Position numbers and translations under genes: made by a program. Positions 24,516-31,396 of a stretch of DNA of 64,000 nucleotides are shown here, piece after piece. How positions within the stretch are numbered: position 1 is the stretch's first letter; every line of letters starts with the position of its first letter. The notes below the pieces were generated by a model that saw only the letters and a program-made list of their open reading frames with translations, was not told the origin of the DNA and made no database searches. This DNA comes from Idiomarina rhizosphaerae. Lineage in GTDB: Bacteria > Pseudomonadota > Gammaproteobacteria > Enterobacterales > Alteromonadaceae. The stretch is taken from contig NZ_JAMZDE010000006.1 in the NCBI RefSeq assembly GCF_024159085.1, positions 62,001 to 126,000 on the forward strand. Reading direction: 5' to 3'.

Positions 24516-25628
24516 ATGAAAGCGCCATCCTGGCGAAGAGCCGTACTGAAAGTGGGGAGTGCGCTCATCGCGCCAGATGAAACTGGGGTTAGCACCAAAT
24601 ACCTATTACCCATAGCTCGTTTTATTAACGAGTGCCGAGAACGCGGACAAGAAGTTGTCTTAGTCTCGTCAGGCAGTGTTGCTGCCGGCCGCAAACATTT
24701 TAACTTCGAACACAAGAAAGTACCGGTTGCCGTGCGCAAAGCAATGTCGGCGGTTGGTCAAAATGAAATGATGGGTTACTGGTCACGCTTTTTCGATTCC
24801 CCCTGCGCCCAGTTGCTTATGACCCACAGCGACTTACGCGACCGAGCTCGCTACGTCAGCATTAAAAACACCCTAAACAGATTGTTAGAGCACGACATTT
24901 TACCAGTGGTAAATGAGAACGATGCTCTTGCTACCGACGAAATGAAAGTGGGTGATAACGATAACTTGTCGGCCATGATCGCAACTTTGGTTGATGCCGA
25001 CGCCCTGTTTATTTGTTCAGACATCGACGGTCTGTATGACTCAGATCCGAATCTGAATCCGGATGCGAAAAAAATACCGGTGGTTGAACAAATTGACGAA
25101 AGCATTTATTCGCTTGCCGGTGGTTCCGTAAGTTCCGTCGGTACAGGGGGAATGCGCACTAAAGTTGAGGCGGCAGAGAAAGCCACTTCACACGGTATCG
25201 ATACTTACATAGTTAACGGTCGTAAAGGTGAAACTTTTGAATCGTTACTACAAGGGGATATCCCCGGCACATTATTCCGTCGCCAATCTGATCCAATTAG
25301 CAATAAAAAGCATTGGTTAAGACACACTCTGGTCGCCCAGGGTGAAATATTGGTTGATGAAGGTGCTGAGAAAGCATTAATTGAGAACGGTGCCTCACTA
25401 CTCAGTTCAGGCATCGTTGATGTACAAGGTGACTTTGATCGCGGTGACGCCGTGCTGGTTCGCAGTGCCAACGATACTGACGCTATCGCAAAAGGTATTT
25501 GTCAGTACAGCGCGCACGAACTGATGCACATTAAAGGGCAGCAAACTGAAGATATAGCAGAGAAATTTGGCTATAGCCCGATAACGGAAGTTATTCACCG
25601 TGACGACCTAATGATTTTGGAGGACTAA
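24516..25628 (+). CDS. proB: Glutamate 5-kinase
   Basis: ProB phosphorylates glutamate, the first and feedback-regulated step of proline synthesis. The 370-residue form has the amino acid kinase domain (KVGSALIAP, VLVSSGSVAAGR, VNENDALAT, VGDNDNLSAMIA, GTGGMRTKVEAA) and a C-terminal PUA domain (residues about 275-365, ILVDEGAEKALIENGASLL). AAGGGAG lies upstream of the ATG. It overlaps the proA start by one base (TAATG). Confidence 0.97.
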   Translation: MKAPSWRRAVLKVGSALIAPDETGVSTKYLLPIARFINECRERGQEVVLVSSGSVAAGRKHFNFEHKKVPVAVRKAMSAVGQNEMMGYWSRFFDSPCAQLLMTHSDLRDRARYVSIKNTLNRLLEHDILPVVNENDALATDEMKVGDNDNLSAMIATLVDADALFICSDIDGLYDSDPNLNPDAKKIPVVEQIDESIYSLAGGSVSSVGTGGMRTKVEAAEKATSHGIDTYIVNGRKGETFESLLQGDIPGTLFRRQSDPISNKKHWLRHTLVAQGEILVDEGAEKALIENGASLLSSGIVDVQGDFDRGDAVLVRSANDTDAIAKGICQYSAHELMHIKGQQTEDIAEKFGYSPITEVIHRDDLMILED

Positions 25629-26881
25629 TGAGTCAACAAATAGCAAAAGAAATTTCACAACGCGCGGCGAAAGCCGCACGGGCAGTAGCCACCTTATCTG
25701 AAGCAGATAAAAACAGCGTACTGCAGAAAATGGCTGACGCTATTCGTGCACGCCAAGATAAGATTATTGAAGTAAATAAGAAAGATCTGGTCGCTGGTAA
25801 AGAAAAAGGCCTGAGTGATTCTATGATGGATCGTCTTGAGTTAACGCCTGAACGCATTGAAGGTATGGCTTCTGCCATTGAAGAAATCATTGCGTTGAAA
25901 GATCCTGTAGGCGATAGCTACGTTCTGGACGAGCGTCCTAACGGAATGAAAATTGAGAAAATGCGCATTCCTCTGGGCGTTATATGTATGATTTACGAAG
26001 CTCGTCCTAACGTAACTGCTGATGCTGGAGCACTGTGCTTCAAATCGGGTAACGCCGTTATCTTGCGTTGTGGGCGTGAAGCAATTGACAGCAGTAAAGC
26101 CATTGCTGAAGCATTGCACGAAGCTTTAGAAGCCAGCAATCTGCCTAAAGACGTTATCACCGTGGTGCCAACACCTGACCGCGAACTGATGACTGAACTT
26201 CTGCAACAGAAAGACTATATTGATCTGGTTATTCCTCGCGGCGGTGAAGGCTTGATTCACTTCGTTAGTGACACCAGTAAAATCCCAGTCATTCAGCATT
26301 ATAAAGGTGTTTGCCACCTGTACGTTGATAAAGATGCAGACCTTGATAAAGCTCTGGCTATTTTGCTTAACGGTAAAACTCAGCGTACCGGCGTTTGTAA
26401 TGCGCTCGAAGGTCTACTGGTTCATCAGGACGTTGCTGATAAGTTCTTGCCTATGGCTGCTAAGGCTCTGGCTGAAAAAGACGTAACCATCCATGCAGAT
26501 AAGCGTTCAGTAAGCTACTTTGATGGCGCTGATGAGATTGCAGACGATGCTTTTGGTGAAGAATACCTGGCTCTTGAAATTGCGGTTCGCACCGTCGACA
26601 ACTACGAAGGTGCTATTGAGCATATTCAGGAGTTTGGTAGCGGTCATACCGAAGTTATTATCACTGAAAACGATGAAACGGCTAAGCGTTTCATTCGTGA
26701 AGTAGATTCAGCCGTTACCATGGCAAATGTCTCTTCTCGCTTCTCTGATGGCGGCCAGTTAGGTTTGGGTGCTGAAATTGGTATCTCTACCAGTAAGCTA
26801 CACGCATACGGACCAATGGGTCTTGAAGCACTAACAACTGAGAAATTCGTGGTGACCGGTAACGGTCAGGTCCGCGACTAG
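25628..26881 (+). CDS. proA: Glutamate-5-semialdehyde dehydrogenase
   Basis: ProA reduces glutamyl-5-phosphate to the semialdehyde, which cyclises to pyrroline-5-carboxylate for ProC. Signatures are IPLGVICMIYEARPNVT, FKSGNAVILRCGREA, IPRGGEGLIHFV, the catalytic Cys in QRTGVCNALE, and the C-terminal VNxS-like MANVSSRFSDGGQLGLGAEIGIS. It is 417 residues, the usual length. A strong terminator follows. Confidence 0.98.
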   Translation: MSQQIAKEISQRAAKAARAVATLSEADKNSVLQKMADAIRARQDKIIEVNKKDLVAGKEKGLSDSMMDRLELTPERIEGMASAIEEIIALKDPVGDSYVLDERPNGMKIEKMRIPLGVICMIYEARPNVTADAGALCFKSGNAVILRCGREAIDSSKAIAEALHEALEASNLPKDVITVVPTPDRELMTELLQQKDYIDLVIPRGGEGLIHFVSDTSKIPVIQHYKGVCHLYVDKDADLDKALAILLNGKTQRTGVCNALEGLLVHQDVADKFLPMAAKALAEKDVTIHADKRSVSYFDGADEIADDAFGEEYLALEIAVRTVDNYEGAIEHIQEFGSGHTEVIITENDETAKRFIREVDSAVTMANVSSRFSDGGQLGLGAEIGISTSKLHAYGPMGLEALTTEKFVVTGNGQVRD

Positions 26882-26894
26882 TATTTCACGCATT

Positions 26895-26936
26895 AAAAAG
26901 CCCCGGTCACTTCACTTAGTGGCCGGGGCTTTTTTT
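26895..26936 (+). terminator. Intrinsic terminator of proBA
   Basis: The 16-bp stem AAAAAGCCCCGGTCAC / GTGGCCGGGGCTTTTT has one G-U pair, an eight-base loop and a run of seven T. It lies between convergent proA and waaA-kdkA and may serve both directions. Confidence 0.93.
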
Positions 26937-26948
26937 ATGGCTTAAAGC

Positions 26949-28934
26949 TTAACGACGGTAGCCAGTTAATAATTCAGGCCAGTCACGTGACTCCTTCCAG
27001 TAGAACGTCTCATTCTTCTCTTTTTCTTTGCGTAAAGAGCGCAATAGCCGTTGGATATTGGCTTCTTTCCAGTCACCATTTTCACGGAAATCGCATTTAT
27101 CAAAATCGACAATCCAGGCTTTGTCTTTGTCATCCAGCATAAGGTTGTGACAATTTAAATCTGAATGGTAGACACCGGTATCGTGCAGCTCTTTAATAAC
27201 ACTTCCCAGCTTTTGCCATAACTCTGCGGAGAGTTTCTTTTCACGCAGTAAGCGAAAAACATCGACAGCCCCCGGTATAACTTCTACCAGAATGTCGGCT
27301 TTGTAACTGAAAACCGCTGTCTTTTCCATACGAGCTGCTACTGGACGAGGAACGGGCAAACCAATTTCCCGCAGCTTCAATAGCAAATCGAACTCATGAA
27401 TAGCCCGGCTTTTTTCCGCAGGTTCACGTAAAAAACGATCTTTATTAATTTTACCGACTAAACCACCACGATAATAATGGCGCAGTAAAAGTCCCAAATC
27501 ACCCTGCTGAATAAACCAAACTGTTGCGCGTCCCGTTGAGTTTCCCGCAATCGACTTCTGTTGCTGCCAATACTGGGCTGTAAAATGCTTGTCTTCTATC
27601 GTTTCAAAAATATCGCTGTCGTAGCGAATAAGCCCTTGGGGACTCTGCTCTGTTTTTATCATACCACTTCCTGTCAGAGTATATTCCAGTGCCCGCTTTA
27701 ATACTCTTAACGTAGCACCCTGGTGCGTTTGTAAAACGCTTTTAGCAGCTTCATGTTGCGCTTTCATGACAGCTGTCTGCTGCATCAACTCCACAGCTTT
27801 TTTAATTTCTCCGGCATTACTGACCCACTGCACAGCGCCCGCCTTTGCCAACTCACCATAAACTTGCGGGAAATTGAACACATGCCGCCCTGACATAACA
27901 TTGGAGCCAGCAGCAATAACTTCAAGGGGGTTGTGCCCTCCTCGCTTAATAATACTTCCGCCGACAAAGCTCACCGAGGCTAATTGACCCCAAAGCATCA
28001 TTTCCCCCATGCTGTCAGCGAGAAAGACATCACAGTCTGTAGGTATAGCATTACTTTGGGTTCTACGAGCAAGCTTAAGTCCGGATTCCTGTATCATTTG
28101 TGCTACCAGCTCAAATTGCTCAGGGTGTCGAGGCGCAATGATAAGGCATGAATTCGGTAAGTCCTGTTGAATAAGTTTATGTGCTTCTAACAGCACCTCA
28201 TGCTCACCCGGATGGCTGCTACTAGCCAGCCACACATGTCGCGATGCACAGCTATGCTGCCATGCCAGAGCTTTTTCAATGTCAGTAGCACAAAGCTCAA
28301 CGTCGTATTTAAGATTTCCATCCACAAACAGCACACTATAGGGGACACCTAAAACCTTCATTCTGCGCGCCGTTTCTTTATTCTGAACAGAAACTAATGT
28401 CAGTTGTTTCCAAACCGTCTTCATCAACCAGTGAAACCGCCTATAACCCGCCGCTGAACGAGCCGAGAGGCGTGCATTTAACAATGCAACGGGAATATTA
28501 GCACTGGCACATTGATGTAACATTTGCGGCCAAAGCTCGGTTTCCATTACCCACACGGCTTTAGGTTTAAACTTACGTACAAAACGCTTCGCAGCACCCG
28601 GAGTATCTATCGGCCAGTAGCGACAACTAACAGCGTCGCCAAAATGCTGCTGGATAAGTTCCCGGGCCGTTGGTGTCATACAGGTAATGAGTATTTTTTG
28701 ACACGGTTCCTGACGCAAAAGCTGCTCGATTAACCGTTTCGCCGCCAAGGTTTCGCCAACGGAAACGCTATGAATAACCACACAGCCGTGCTGTCTTTTA
28801 TCAACAGAGCCCAGCGCAAGCCGTTCTGACCAGTTCTGACGATAGCGGCTGTCTTTTCTGCCACGCAACCACAACCAGACAAAAACGGCTGGAGTGACCA
28901 GCCGTATTAATACTCCGTAGATCCACAATCGCAT
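26949..28934 (-). CDS. waaA: Fusion of Kdo transferase (WaaA) and Kdo kinase (KdkA)
   Basis: One uninterrupted frame of 661 residues joins two lipid A-core enzymes. Residues 1-424 are a full-length WaaA, which adds Kdo to lipid A precursor: an N-terminal membrane anchor (LWIYGVLIRL), IHSVSVGET with the catalytic Glu, ETELWP, ARLSARSAAGY, and SFVGGSIIKRGGHNPLE. Residues 425-661 are a full-length KdkA, the kinase for Kdo O4: GGLVGKINKDRF, GVYHSDLNCHNLML and IVDFDKC. The junction is a Met codon at 27662 preceded by AGGA six bases upstream, so separate KdkA could also be made. The start at 28934 is five bases after the previous stop and matches the E. coli WaaA start. KdkA is usual in organisms with a single Kdo. 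Confidence 0.93.
   Translation of the reverse strand: MRLWIYGVLIRLVTPAVFVWLWLRGRKDSRYRQNWSERLALGSVDKRQHGCVVIHSVSVGETLAAKRLIEQLLRQEPCQKILITCMTPTARELIQQHFGDAVSCRYWPIDTPGAAKRFVRKFKPKAVWVMETELWPQMLHQCASANIPVALLNARLSARSAAGYRRFHWLMKTVWKQLTLVSVQNKETARRMKVLGVPYSVLFVDGNLKYDVELCATDIEKALAWQHSCASRHVWLASSSHPGEHEVLLEAHKLIQQDLPNSCLIIAPRHPEQFELVAQMIQESGLKLARRTQSNAIPTDCDVFLADSMGEMMLWGQLASVSFVGGSIIKRGGHNPLEVIAAGSNVMSGRHVFNFPQVYGELAKAGAVQWVSNAGEIKKAVELMQQTAVMKAQHEAAKSVLQTHQGATLRVLKRALEYTLTGSGMIKTEQSPQGLIRYDSDIFETIEDKHFTAQYWQQQKSIAGNSTGRATVWFIQQGDLGLLLRHYYRGGLVGKINKDRFLREPAEKSRAIHEFDLLLKLREIGLPVPRPVAARMEKTAVFSYKADILVEVIPGAVDVFRLLREKKLSAELWQKLGSVIKELHDTGVYHSDLNCHNLMLDDKDKAWIVDFDKCDFRENGDWKEANIQRLLRSLRKEKEKNETFYWKESRDWPELLTGYRR
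27660..27672 (-). promoter_or_regulatory. Internal Shine-Dalgarno and ATG at the WaaA/KdkA junction
   Basis: AGGA (27672-27669) stands six bases ahead of the in-frame ATG at 27662. Translation from it would give a 237-residue KdkA, close to the 241 residues of the Haemophilus enzyme. Confidence 0.6.
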
Positions 28935-28939
28935 ATCAT

Positions 28940-29716
28940 TTAACGCCAGTATTCGGCTATCCACTTGGTTGGCAGAACCTTACGGTACCACTTGCCGCTT
29001 CGGCCTTCCAACGCATCATCCGGGTGCGGTTTGCCGTGGAAAATAATAACTTTCGCTTCTTCCGGAATACGCGGCTCCTGAAAAAAGCTAAGTGGAAATG
29101 GACGCAGACAATGGCGCTTAAAGCTACGACACCACTTTTCCGGCCAATACGTCAGCTTGTTTTGGCGATCGACAAAGTGCGTAATATATTCTTGTTCATT
29201 TCGTACGTCAGCAATAGCCGCTTTCGGGTCTTTTTTCAGATGCTCTAACGCATCTTCATGAGCGCCAATATCAAAACGAAATACCGATGTATTCCCGGTA
29301 GCGTCAGATTTATCCCACTCTTTGATCACCATAAACTCGCCTTCCGGCTCAAAGAATTCGTCCAGGCTGCCAACAATAATAATATCCAGATCCAGGAATA
29401 AGGTTGGGCCTTCAAGATCATAAAGCGGGTTCGCAAAGCAGGTAAGCTTTAACCAGCCGTGACCTTTTGTCCACGGAACTTGTTCATCAAAGTCTTTAAA
29501 GCCAATTTTAGGAATAGCTTTTACTTCAATCTCGTCATTGATACCCTCAAAGTCATCGGTAAAACAGACAAAACGGAACGGTCGACTAAGGTGCCGACTG
29601 ACCATTGAATGCAATGTATTGACGTAATCGGGGCCATACTTTTTACCCCATTTAATGCAAATGACGTTGACCGGTTTTTGCTCTGATGAATTCTCGTTAT
29701 CCGTTACCTGACTCAT
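28940..29716 (-). CDS. Predicted glycosyltransferase next to waaA-kdkA
   Basis: This 258-residue cytoplasmic protein looks like a nucleotide-sugar glycosyltransferase of GT-A fold: VNVICIKWGKKYG at the N-terminus, FRFVCFTDD, and the metal-binding DxD in TLFLDLDIIIVGSLDEFF. The C-terminal part has VIIFHGKPHPDDA, typical of related capsule and LPS transferases. The donor and acceptor are unknown. It lies five bases ahead of waaA-kdkA and is the first gene of that unit, so a role in LPS core assembly is the best inference. Confidence 0.7.
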   Translation of the reverse strand: MSQVTDNENSSEQKPVNVICIKWGKKYGPDYVNTLHSMVSRHLSRPFRFVCFTDDFEGINDEIEVKAIPKIGFKDFDEQVPWTKGHGWLKLTCFANPLYDLEGPTLFLDLDIIIVGSLDEFFEPEGEFMVIKEWDKSDATGNTSVFRFDIGAHEDALEHLKKDPKAAIADVRNEQEYITHFVDRQNKLTYWPEKWCRSFKRHCLRPFPLSFFQEPRIPEEAKVIIFHGKPHPDDALEGRSGKWYRKVLPTKWIAEYWR

Positions 29717-29839: not shown

Positions 29840-31396
29840 ATGAAAATTCATACTCTACGGCTAATACTTGGCGACCAACTCAATGCCAGACATTCGTGGT
29901 TCAGAGAAAAGAACGCGGGCGTACTCTATGTGATGATGGAGCTCAAACAAGAAACTGGCTACGTTGTTCACCATCGGCAAAAAGTATTAGCCTTTTTCGC
30001 TGCAATGCGGGCTTTCGGTAACGCACTGAGTACTGCAGGACATCAAGTAAACTATATAAAACTTGATAATGACACTAATAACCAAAGCCTGACCCAGAAC
30101 CTTCAGCAATTAATGCAAGACCACGAAGTGACTACTTTGGAGTGCCAGCAACCCGACGAATACCGTCTCGATCATCAACTTAAAAGCTGGGCCGGCGCCA
30201 ATAAAATTAATATAAACTGGTTTGATACAGAGCACTTTCTTACTGGCCGCAACTCGCTAAAAGAGTATTTCCCCAATAGCGAAAACTACTTAATGGAAAC
30301 CTTCTACAGAAAGGTACGTAAGCAATACGATATTCTGATGGAGGATGGACGCCCGACCGGAGGCCGCTGGAATTACGATAAAGAAAACCAGAAAAAGATT
30401 CCCGCAAATCATGACCTAGAACCGCCTTTAATCTTCTCTAATGACGTATCAGATATTGATGAGCTGTTGCACAACAGTGAAGTTAAAACCATGGGGCAAG
30501 CGAACGCGGCTCAACTGATATGGCCGGTTAACCGAAGACAGTCTAAGCAGTTGCTTGAACATTTTTGTCAGTTCGGACTCCCCGACTTTGGTCGTTATCA
30601 GGACACCATGGCAACAGAAAACAACGTTGGTGAATCTCACTGGAGTCTTTATCACTCACGGCTTTCATTTTCTCTCAACACCAAAATGCTGCATCCGTTA
30701 GAAGTGGTTAACGCTGCTATTGATGCCTGGTCGAAAAATAAAGACAGCATTTCACTTGCCCAAATTGAAGGCTTCTGTCGGCAAATTATTGGCTGGCGAG
30801 AGTTTGTGCGGGGCATTTACTGGGCGCATATGCCTGACTATAAAAACCTTAACGATCTTAACCACACTAGAGCGCTACCGGAGTTTTACTGGAATGCCGA
30901 CACCAAAATGAACTGTCTGCACTATTCCATTAAGCAGTCGTTAGACTATGCCTACGCACATCACATACAGCGGTTAATGGTAACTGGAAATTTCGCACTA
31001 CTGGCCGGTGTATCACCGGATGCTTTGGACGACTGGTATCTTGGCATTTATATTGATGCCATTGAGTGGGTGGAACTGCCCAATACGCGCGGCATGAGCC
31101 AGTATGCCGACGGCGGATTGATAGCAACCAAACCCTACATTGCCAGTGCCAACTATATGCAAAAAATGGGGCACTATTGTAAAGAATGCTATTATAATCC
31201 GAAGAAGAAAACCGGTGAGAAAGCTTGTCCTTTTAACAGCCTGTACTGGCATTTTATTGAACGTCATAAAGAACGCTTTAAAGACAATCACAGGATGAGC
31301 ATGATGTATCAGGTCTGGAATAAGAAACCCGAAGAAGAACAGCTGGCGTTAATCAAACAAGCCGAAACTTATTTAGATAATATCAACGATTTATAA
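29840..31396 (+). CDS. Iron-sulphur bacterial photolyase/cryptochrome (PhrB/CryB-like)
   Basis: This 518-residue flavoprotein belongs to the FeS-BCP branch, prokaryotic (6-4) photolyases such as Agrobacterium PhrB. The N-terminal antenna domain starts [15 protein letters not shown]. The FAD domain has [17 protein letters not shown] and [14 protein letters not shown]. Four cysteines, Cys359 (MNCLHYS), Cys447, Cys450 (YCKECYYN) and Cys463 (KACPFN), keep the 88-3-13 spacing of the cluster ligands that I recall for PhrB. It should repair UV damage or act as a blue-light receptor. It is followed 12 bases later by a lipocalin, a pairing common in marine bacteria. Confidence 0.93.

Follow-up and report, generated by a model that had tools for sequence, protein, structure and literature searches.

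A fused Kdo transferase-Kdo kinase gene in Idiomarina and related genera, with a conserved putative translation start at the domain joint

Does a gene that joins a Kdo transferase to a Kdo kinase make a single bifunctional protein, or does it also supply the kinase on its own? This question is raised by a locus in a 64,000-nucleotide stretch of Idiomarina rhizosphaerae DNA, hereafter called the window. Positions 26949-28934 (minus strand) translate into a single frame of 661 amino acids plus a stop codon, with zero internal stops. Residues 1-424 (27663-28934, minus strand) make up WaaA, the lipid IVA Kdo transferase, and residues 425-661 (26949-27662, minus strand; 237 amino acids plus stop) make up KdkA, the Kdo kinase. 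The first KdkA residue is M425, at window position 27662, and the KdkA part is the same frame that an internal start would yield. Pfam places Glycos_transf_N (PF04413) at residues 33-212 (E 4e-60) and the Kdo/WaaP kinase family at residues 454-659 (E 2e-45). The whole-length NCBIfam profiles give the same picture: NF004388 (lipid IVA Kdo transferase) aligns with residues 4-415 over model positions 5-417 of 425, with a score of 439.9 bits that is barely above the cut-off of 438, and NF002475 (Kdo kinase) aligns with residues 426-660 over model positions 3-236 of 241, scoring 274.9 bits where the cut-off is 142. Translation, Pfam, and NCBIfam thus confirm the coordinates and lengths in the original prediction, which had placed a 424-residue WaaA and a 237-residue KdkA in one frame.

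The WaaA part also matches the solved relative 2XCI, with E61 aligned to the GE of that protein, and its AlphaFold model reaches block-mean pLDDT values of 71-95 over residues 31 to 420, with lower values before residue 31. A helix is predicted at the N terminus, through which the WaaA part would be anchored in the membrane. The KdkA half was modeled poorly (block means of 26-54), leaving WaaA as the only confident part, and when most of the KdkA sequence was used as a query, only weak kinase matches came back, the best being 4C0T (E 7e-4). The assignment of this half comes from the NF002475 profile and from its motifs.

We examined these motifs in an alignment of 44 fusions, comprising 18 from Idiomarina (genus g1), 6 from g51, 5 from g66, 7 each from g18 and g69, and 1 from g72; 20 further g51 genomes and G815 are outside this alignment. 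The WaaA residues H55, E61, E131, E133, H334, N335, and E338 are invariant in all 44, so that the Glu of SVGE, the E-x-E motif, and GGHN are all kept. Equally invariant are the kinase residues H590, D592, N597, D610, and D612, which preserve HxD...N and DFD. We take the Glu of SVGE (E61) to be catalytic, and the other listed residues presumably play the roles that go with their motifs. On this conservation, both the WaaA and the KdkA halves look active. Each of the 19 Idiomarina genomes has exactly one full-length Kdo-kinase domain; the remaining PF06293 matches in the genus are partial and reach at most 31.3 bits, 12 of them exceeding the low family cut-off of 21.3, and the second match in G012, the I. 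zobellii twin, scores 19.5 and falls under it. The source genome has one Pfam WaaA match, and the window protein (P0001) matches the 18 fused Idiomarina genomes at one place each.

The frame is open through both domains in 18/19 Idiomarina genomes, two of which share the gene sequence exactly with records of I. abyssalis and I. zobellii. The exception is G015, where waaA and kdkA are adjacent in different frames with 10 nt from the waaA stop to the kdkA ATG. Whole-genus searches found the fusion in 26/26 genomes of g51, in 5/6 of g66 (the sixth, G174, gave no match), and in a single genome, G815 (locus L140), of the 17 in g11. Among the other 16 g11 genomes, kdkA lies separately close behind waaA in 13 and is absent from the fetched waaA locus in 3. 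At two g11 loci, L141 (G822) and L142 (G817), waaA and kdkA stand in the same frame with a single stop codon separating them. A family sample of 196 genomes held at least 34 fusions (8 in g1, 6 in g51, 5 in g66, 7 in g18, 7 in g69, and 1 in g72). Together, the fusion is present in at least 65 genomes of seven genera (18 + 26 + 5 + 7 + 7 + 1 + 1), at least 21 of them in the five genera besides g1 and g51. The expectation that both domains would be found in one protein across relatives was borne out when this search was run.

Among named genomes, 9 of 37 loci were fused with open frames, all of them from Idiomarina (I. abyssalis, I. ramblicola, I. zobellii, I. piscisalsi, I. fontislapidosi, I. 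baltica, and two Idiomarina sp.) or from an Idiomarinaceae MAG; the other 28 were Aeromonas WaaA. Outside the family, no fusion appeared among the matches listed for an order sample of 394 genomes and a class sample of 229. Other long WaaA frames occur in these samples, with lengths up to 764 amino acids in the order and 848 in the class, and we inspected five such loci. Three have a WaaA ORF of ordinary length (423, 455, and 426 amino acids). In the remaining two, G777 and G654, WaaA forms the C-terminal end of a frame that extends farther upstream and in G654 takes in a further long ORF. KdkA followed WaaA in none of the five, and these frames were rejected as fusions.

The joint between the two domains reads ACAGGAAGTGGTATG in the window. 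It contains AGGA, a Shine-Dalgarno core (27669-27672, minus strand), 6 nt before an in-frame ATG (27660-27662, minus strand) that is the predicted start of a free KdkA. We scored a signal as a Shine-Dalgarno 4-mer lying 4-9 nt before a Met codon; a wider limit of 4-11 nt was adopted after misses had been seen. This Met is present in all 18 fused Idiomarina genomes, each time preceded by AGGA, at a spacing of 6 nt in 17 genomes and 8 nt in G013. Over the 18 frames, only 19/281 Met codons have a signal at 4-9 nt, and 18 of those 19 are the junction Met; the signal thus precedes 18/18 junction Met codons versus 1/263 other Met codons. The Met aligned to residue 1 of the window protein lacks it in 17/17 rows.

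Genus g51 behaves in the same way. Five of its first 6 genomes have the signal at 4-9 nt, and 20 new genomes, used as a test, were all fused and had it in 16 cases. The g51 misses carry the signal at 10-11 nt, giving 26/26 under the 4-11 nt limit. For the two genera together, the joint has the signal in 39/44 fusions at 4-9 nt, compared with 7/465 other in-frame Met codons; under the post hoc 4-11 nt limit, these counts become 44/44 and 11/465. In control windows as large as the stretch searched at the joint (35 codons), it occurs at 4-9 nt in 35/9638 cases in Idiomarina and 119/14189 in g51 (154/23,827 together). Because the genomes within these genera are related, the counts do not represent independent events.

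Conservation of the signal does not follow from conservation of the protein. The residues over it form 23 distinct five-residue strings, such as TGSGM, TGSSM, TGNFM, IGQQM, RTLKM, and EFTSM, and the codon register varies as well: AGGA lies over T-G or I-G in most Idiomarina genomes, in G013 and the majority of g51 it covers R-T, and other g51 fusions place GGAG over G-A, E-F, or E-L. An AGG codon is found at the joint in 17/26 g51 genomes, compared with 20/1219 Arg codons elsewhere. Codons -10 to -1 show a synonymous change of 0.021 among the ten closest genomes, against a mean of 0.439, the lowest value of 646 ten-codon windows. With six-codon windows the contrast is weaker, those that cover the signal reaching only ranks 8-11 of 641. 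As the signal is kept while residues and register vary, the conservation is one of nucleotides rather than of residues, and in Idiomarina and g51 it goes beyond what the protein needs, as expected of an internal start. Weighing against the signal as a special case, a stretch about 40 codons upstream of the joint (residues ~382-394, QQTAVMKAQH; window about 27770-27800, minus strand) shows synonymous change nearly as low.

In any single genome, the strength of the Shine-Dalgarno sequence is no proof of an internal start. The duplex energy at the Idiomarina joint, -3.9 to -4.3, is ordinary: in 17/18 rows, 1-7 of the 24-39 other ATGs, taken from all frames, score at least as well (in the L015 row, a different ATG was scored). 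Duplexes are stronger in g51, where 0-2 of 25-39 ATGs are equal or better (six rows, in some of which the scored ATG may be a neighbor). Across the whole window, the signal precedes the first ATG of 16/46 long ORFs and is found at 12/291 internal ATGs. On these counts, the motif alone is weak evidence, and its conservation carries the argument. The mRNA around the internal ATG was not unusually open (MFE of -13.1 versus a gene mean of -14.6).

From these comparisons, we propose that one gene gives two products, a tethered WaaA-KdkA and a free 237-amino acid KdkA, and assign this reading a probability of roughly 0.65. The full-length product would be anchored by its N-terminal WaaA, which would attach a single Kdo to the precursor of lipid A; the tethered KdkA domain would then phosphorylate the same Kdo at O-4, producing a mono-Kdo-4-phosphate core. 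Ribosomes starting at the in-frame Shine-Dalgarno/ATG of the domain joint would make the free kinase. It is an inference that the full-length protein is active in both its domains, that ribosomes use the internal signal, and that tethering is of benefit. The original prediction had spoken of one protein, which would channel the Kdo-lipid from transferase to kinase. The fused frame it described is real, but with the Shine-Dalgarno/ATG kept across two genera, g1 and g51, an account with one protein is probably incomplete, since we also predict a free KdkA. Beyond the two products, we consider it somewhat probable that selection keeps an internal ribosome entry signal at the joint, so that a membrane-tethered transferase-kinase and a free kinase come from one frame in at least two genera, while further genera have the fusion but not the signal, and that this arrangement allows the gene to be split readily, of which G015 may be an example.

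The alternative that survives best, although we regard it as unlikely, is that the full-length bifunctional WaaA-KdkA is the sole product and that the joint retains, as a relic, the Shine-Dalgarno/ATG of a formerly separate kdkA. In favor of this reading, several split relatives do have a kdkA with its own Shine-Dalgarno just downstream of waaA. The genera that mostly lack the signal also speak for it: in g18 and g69, an ATG with the signal is present in 1/14 fusions at 4-9 nt (G184) and in 2/14 at 4-11 nt (G150 in addition). The signal being mostly absent there, a free KdkA is not required by every fusion, and a fusion without a second product appears viable, judging from these genes. In g66, the signal lies at 5-6 nt in 3/5 fusions and at 11 nt in 2/5; the single fusions of g72 and g11 are without it. 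GTG or TTG codons with such signals are found in some fusions.

Repeated fusion or fission would likewise favor a relic. On a tree of WaaA plus KdkA from 52 genomes, the fused and split states require 4 changes, or 3 after one long row is dropped, to which the g11 fusion, found later and outside the trees, adds one more. A quick tree places G015 inside the fused clade with an SH-aLRT of 99%, which suggests that its two genes arose by a fission that the internal start may have eased. A tree holding the 24 fused Idiomarina and g51 rows together without G015 was not rejected (p-AU of 0.061), and fission in G015 is therefore not taken as proven. Against the relic stands the expectation that an unused signal should decay, yet it persists in 39/44 or 44/44 Idiomarina and g51 fusions, depending on the limit, over residues that vary freely and with the lowest synonymous change among the ten-codon windows.

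Shine-Dalgarno-like stretches can pause ribosomes, although this is disputed. The stretch at the joint could therefore act as an elongation pause that gives WaaA time to fold or insert ahead of KdkA synthesis, with no second product. Its position between the two domains suits such a role, but a pause has no need of an ATG, and an in-frame ATG follows at 4-11 nt in 44/44 Idiomarina and g51 fusions, which makes this explanation improbable. If waaA and kdkA encoded two separate proteins, the fused frame would be an error of sequencing or assembly; the two genes of G015 in different frames would agree with this, but the open frame in at least 65 genome records effectively rules it out.

The fusion can be set beside three known systems. 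Compared with WaaA (KdtA; solved relative 2XCI/2XCU), the whole domain and its conserved motifs are alike; the difference is that no stop follows residue 424 and a Kdo kinase forms the C terminus. Compared with KdkA, a Kdo 4-kinase with reported O-4 kinase activity in Haemophilus influenzae (PMC4702295), the whole domain and kinase motifs are again alike; outside the fused genera, most relatives encode KdkA in a gene of its own, which in some lies beside waaA on the opposite strand, whereas here KdkA forms the C-terminal end of WaaA. Genes with an internal in-frame start, such as that of Cas11b (PMC11899642), give a full-length and a C-terminal product, as predicted here, with the difference that both parts of the present gene are complete enzymes for consecutive steps of one pathway. 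In a corpus of 5.39 million open-access papers, judged by title or the start of the abstract, we recognized no described WaaA-KdkA fusion, consistent with the earlier statement that no example was known; the passages considered of PMC1183210 and PMC4702295 contain no such description either. Automatic annotations may well show both domains together.

The inner core that the fusion would make has been described. The lipooligosaccharide of I. zobellii KMM 231T is reported as Neu-(2->6)-Glc-(1->5)-Kdo4P on lipid A, with a single Kdo that is glycosylated by Glc at O-5 (PMC9695755). The phosphate was placed at Kdo O-4 by chemical shifts and a 1H,31P correlation; the Kdo shifts are given as 4.48 ppm for H-4 and 4.28 ppm for H-5, and the H-4/phosphate cross-peak is listed at 4.28, the H-5 shift, perhaps a printing slip (PMC9695755). 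The word "genome" is absent from the text of that report, and the passages considered here name no gene for the Kdo phosphorylation step. The I. zobellii KMM 231 record (L034) carries the fusion, and its gene is identical to that of G012. The prediction of a mono-Kdo, 4-phosphorylated core therefore agrees with a structure already in print for a fusion-bearing species, and the single Kdo fits the monofunctional WaaA that is predicted. This chemistry belongs to I. zobellii and not to the strain of the window, and the fused gene is the putative source of the Kdo phosphate. What is new here is the retention of the Shine-Dalgarno and ATG at the joint.

These findings link a gene to a published inner-core structure with one Kdo-4-phosphate, that of I. 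zobellii, and show that, in a group of genera, two enzymes acting one after the other in an outer-membrane pathway share a single polypeptide. As a conserved feature, the internal start offers a testable case in which separate dosing of the parts would be retained after gene fusion, and the fused, probably two-product, and split relatives form a natural series on the benefit of tethering.

Directly upstream of the fusion lies an ORF of 258 amino acids (28940-29716, minus strand), probably in the same operon, which gave no Pfam match even at an E value of 5. Only 5 nt separate its stop from the waaA ATG, a gap that suggests coupled translation of waaA. The ORF is upstream of the fusion in 18/18 fused Idiomarina and 26/26 g51 genomes. 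It was not found in the G015 stretches L021 and L107, which have a different ORF in its place; an ORF resembling the one at window position 29840 is still upstream there. Because of its position, the 258-amino acid ORF is a candidate for the enzyme that extends the core by its next sugar, for example Glc at O-5 of Kdo.

On the other side of the fusion, a glutamate kinase-like ORF (AA_kinase plus PUA) is followed by proA (24516-26881, plus strand), which ends opposite the fusion. The stops of proA and the fusion converge, and between them, at 26900-26929, lies a GC-rich inverted repeat, GCCCCGGCCACT ... AGTGACCGGGGC, with one mismatch, which by eye looks like a terminator.
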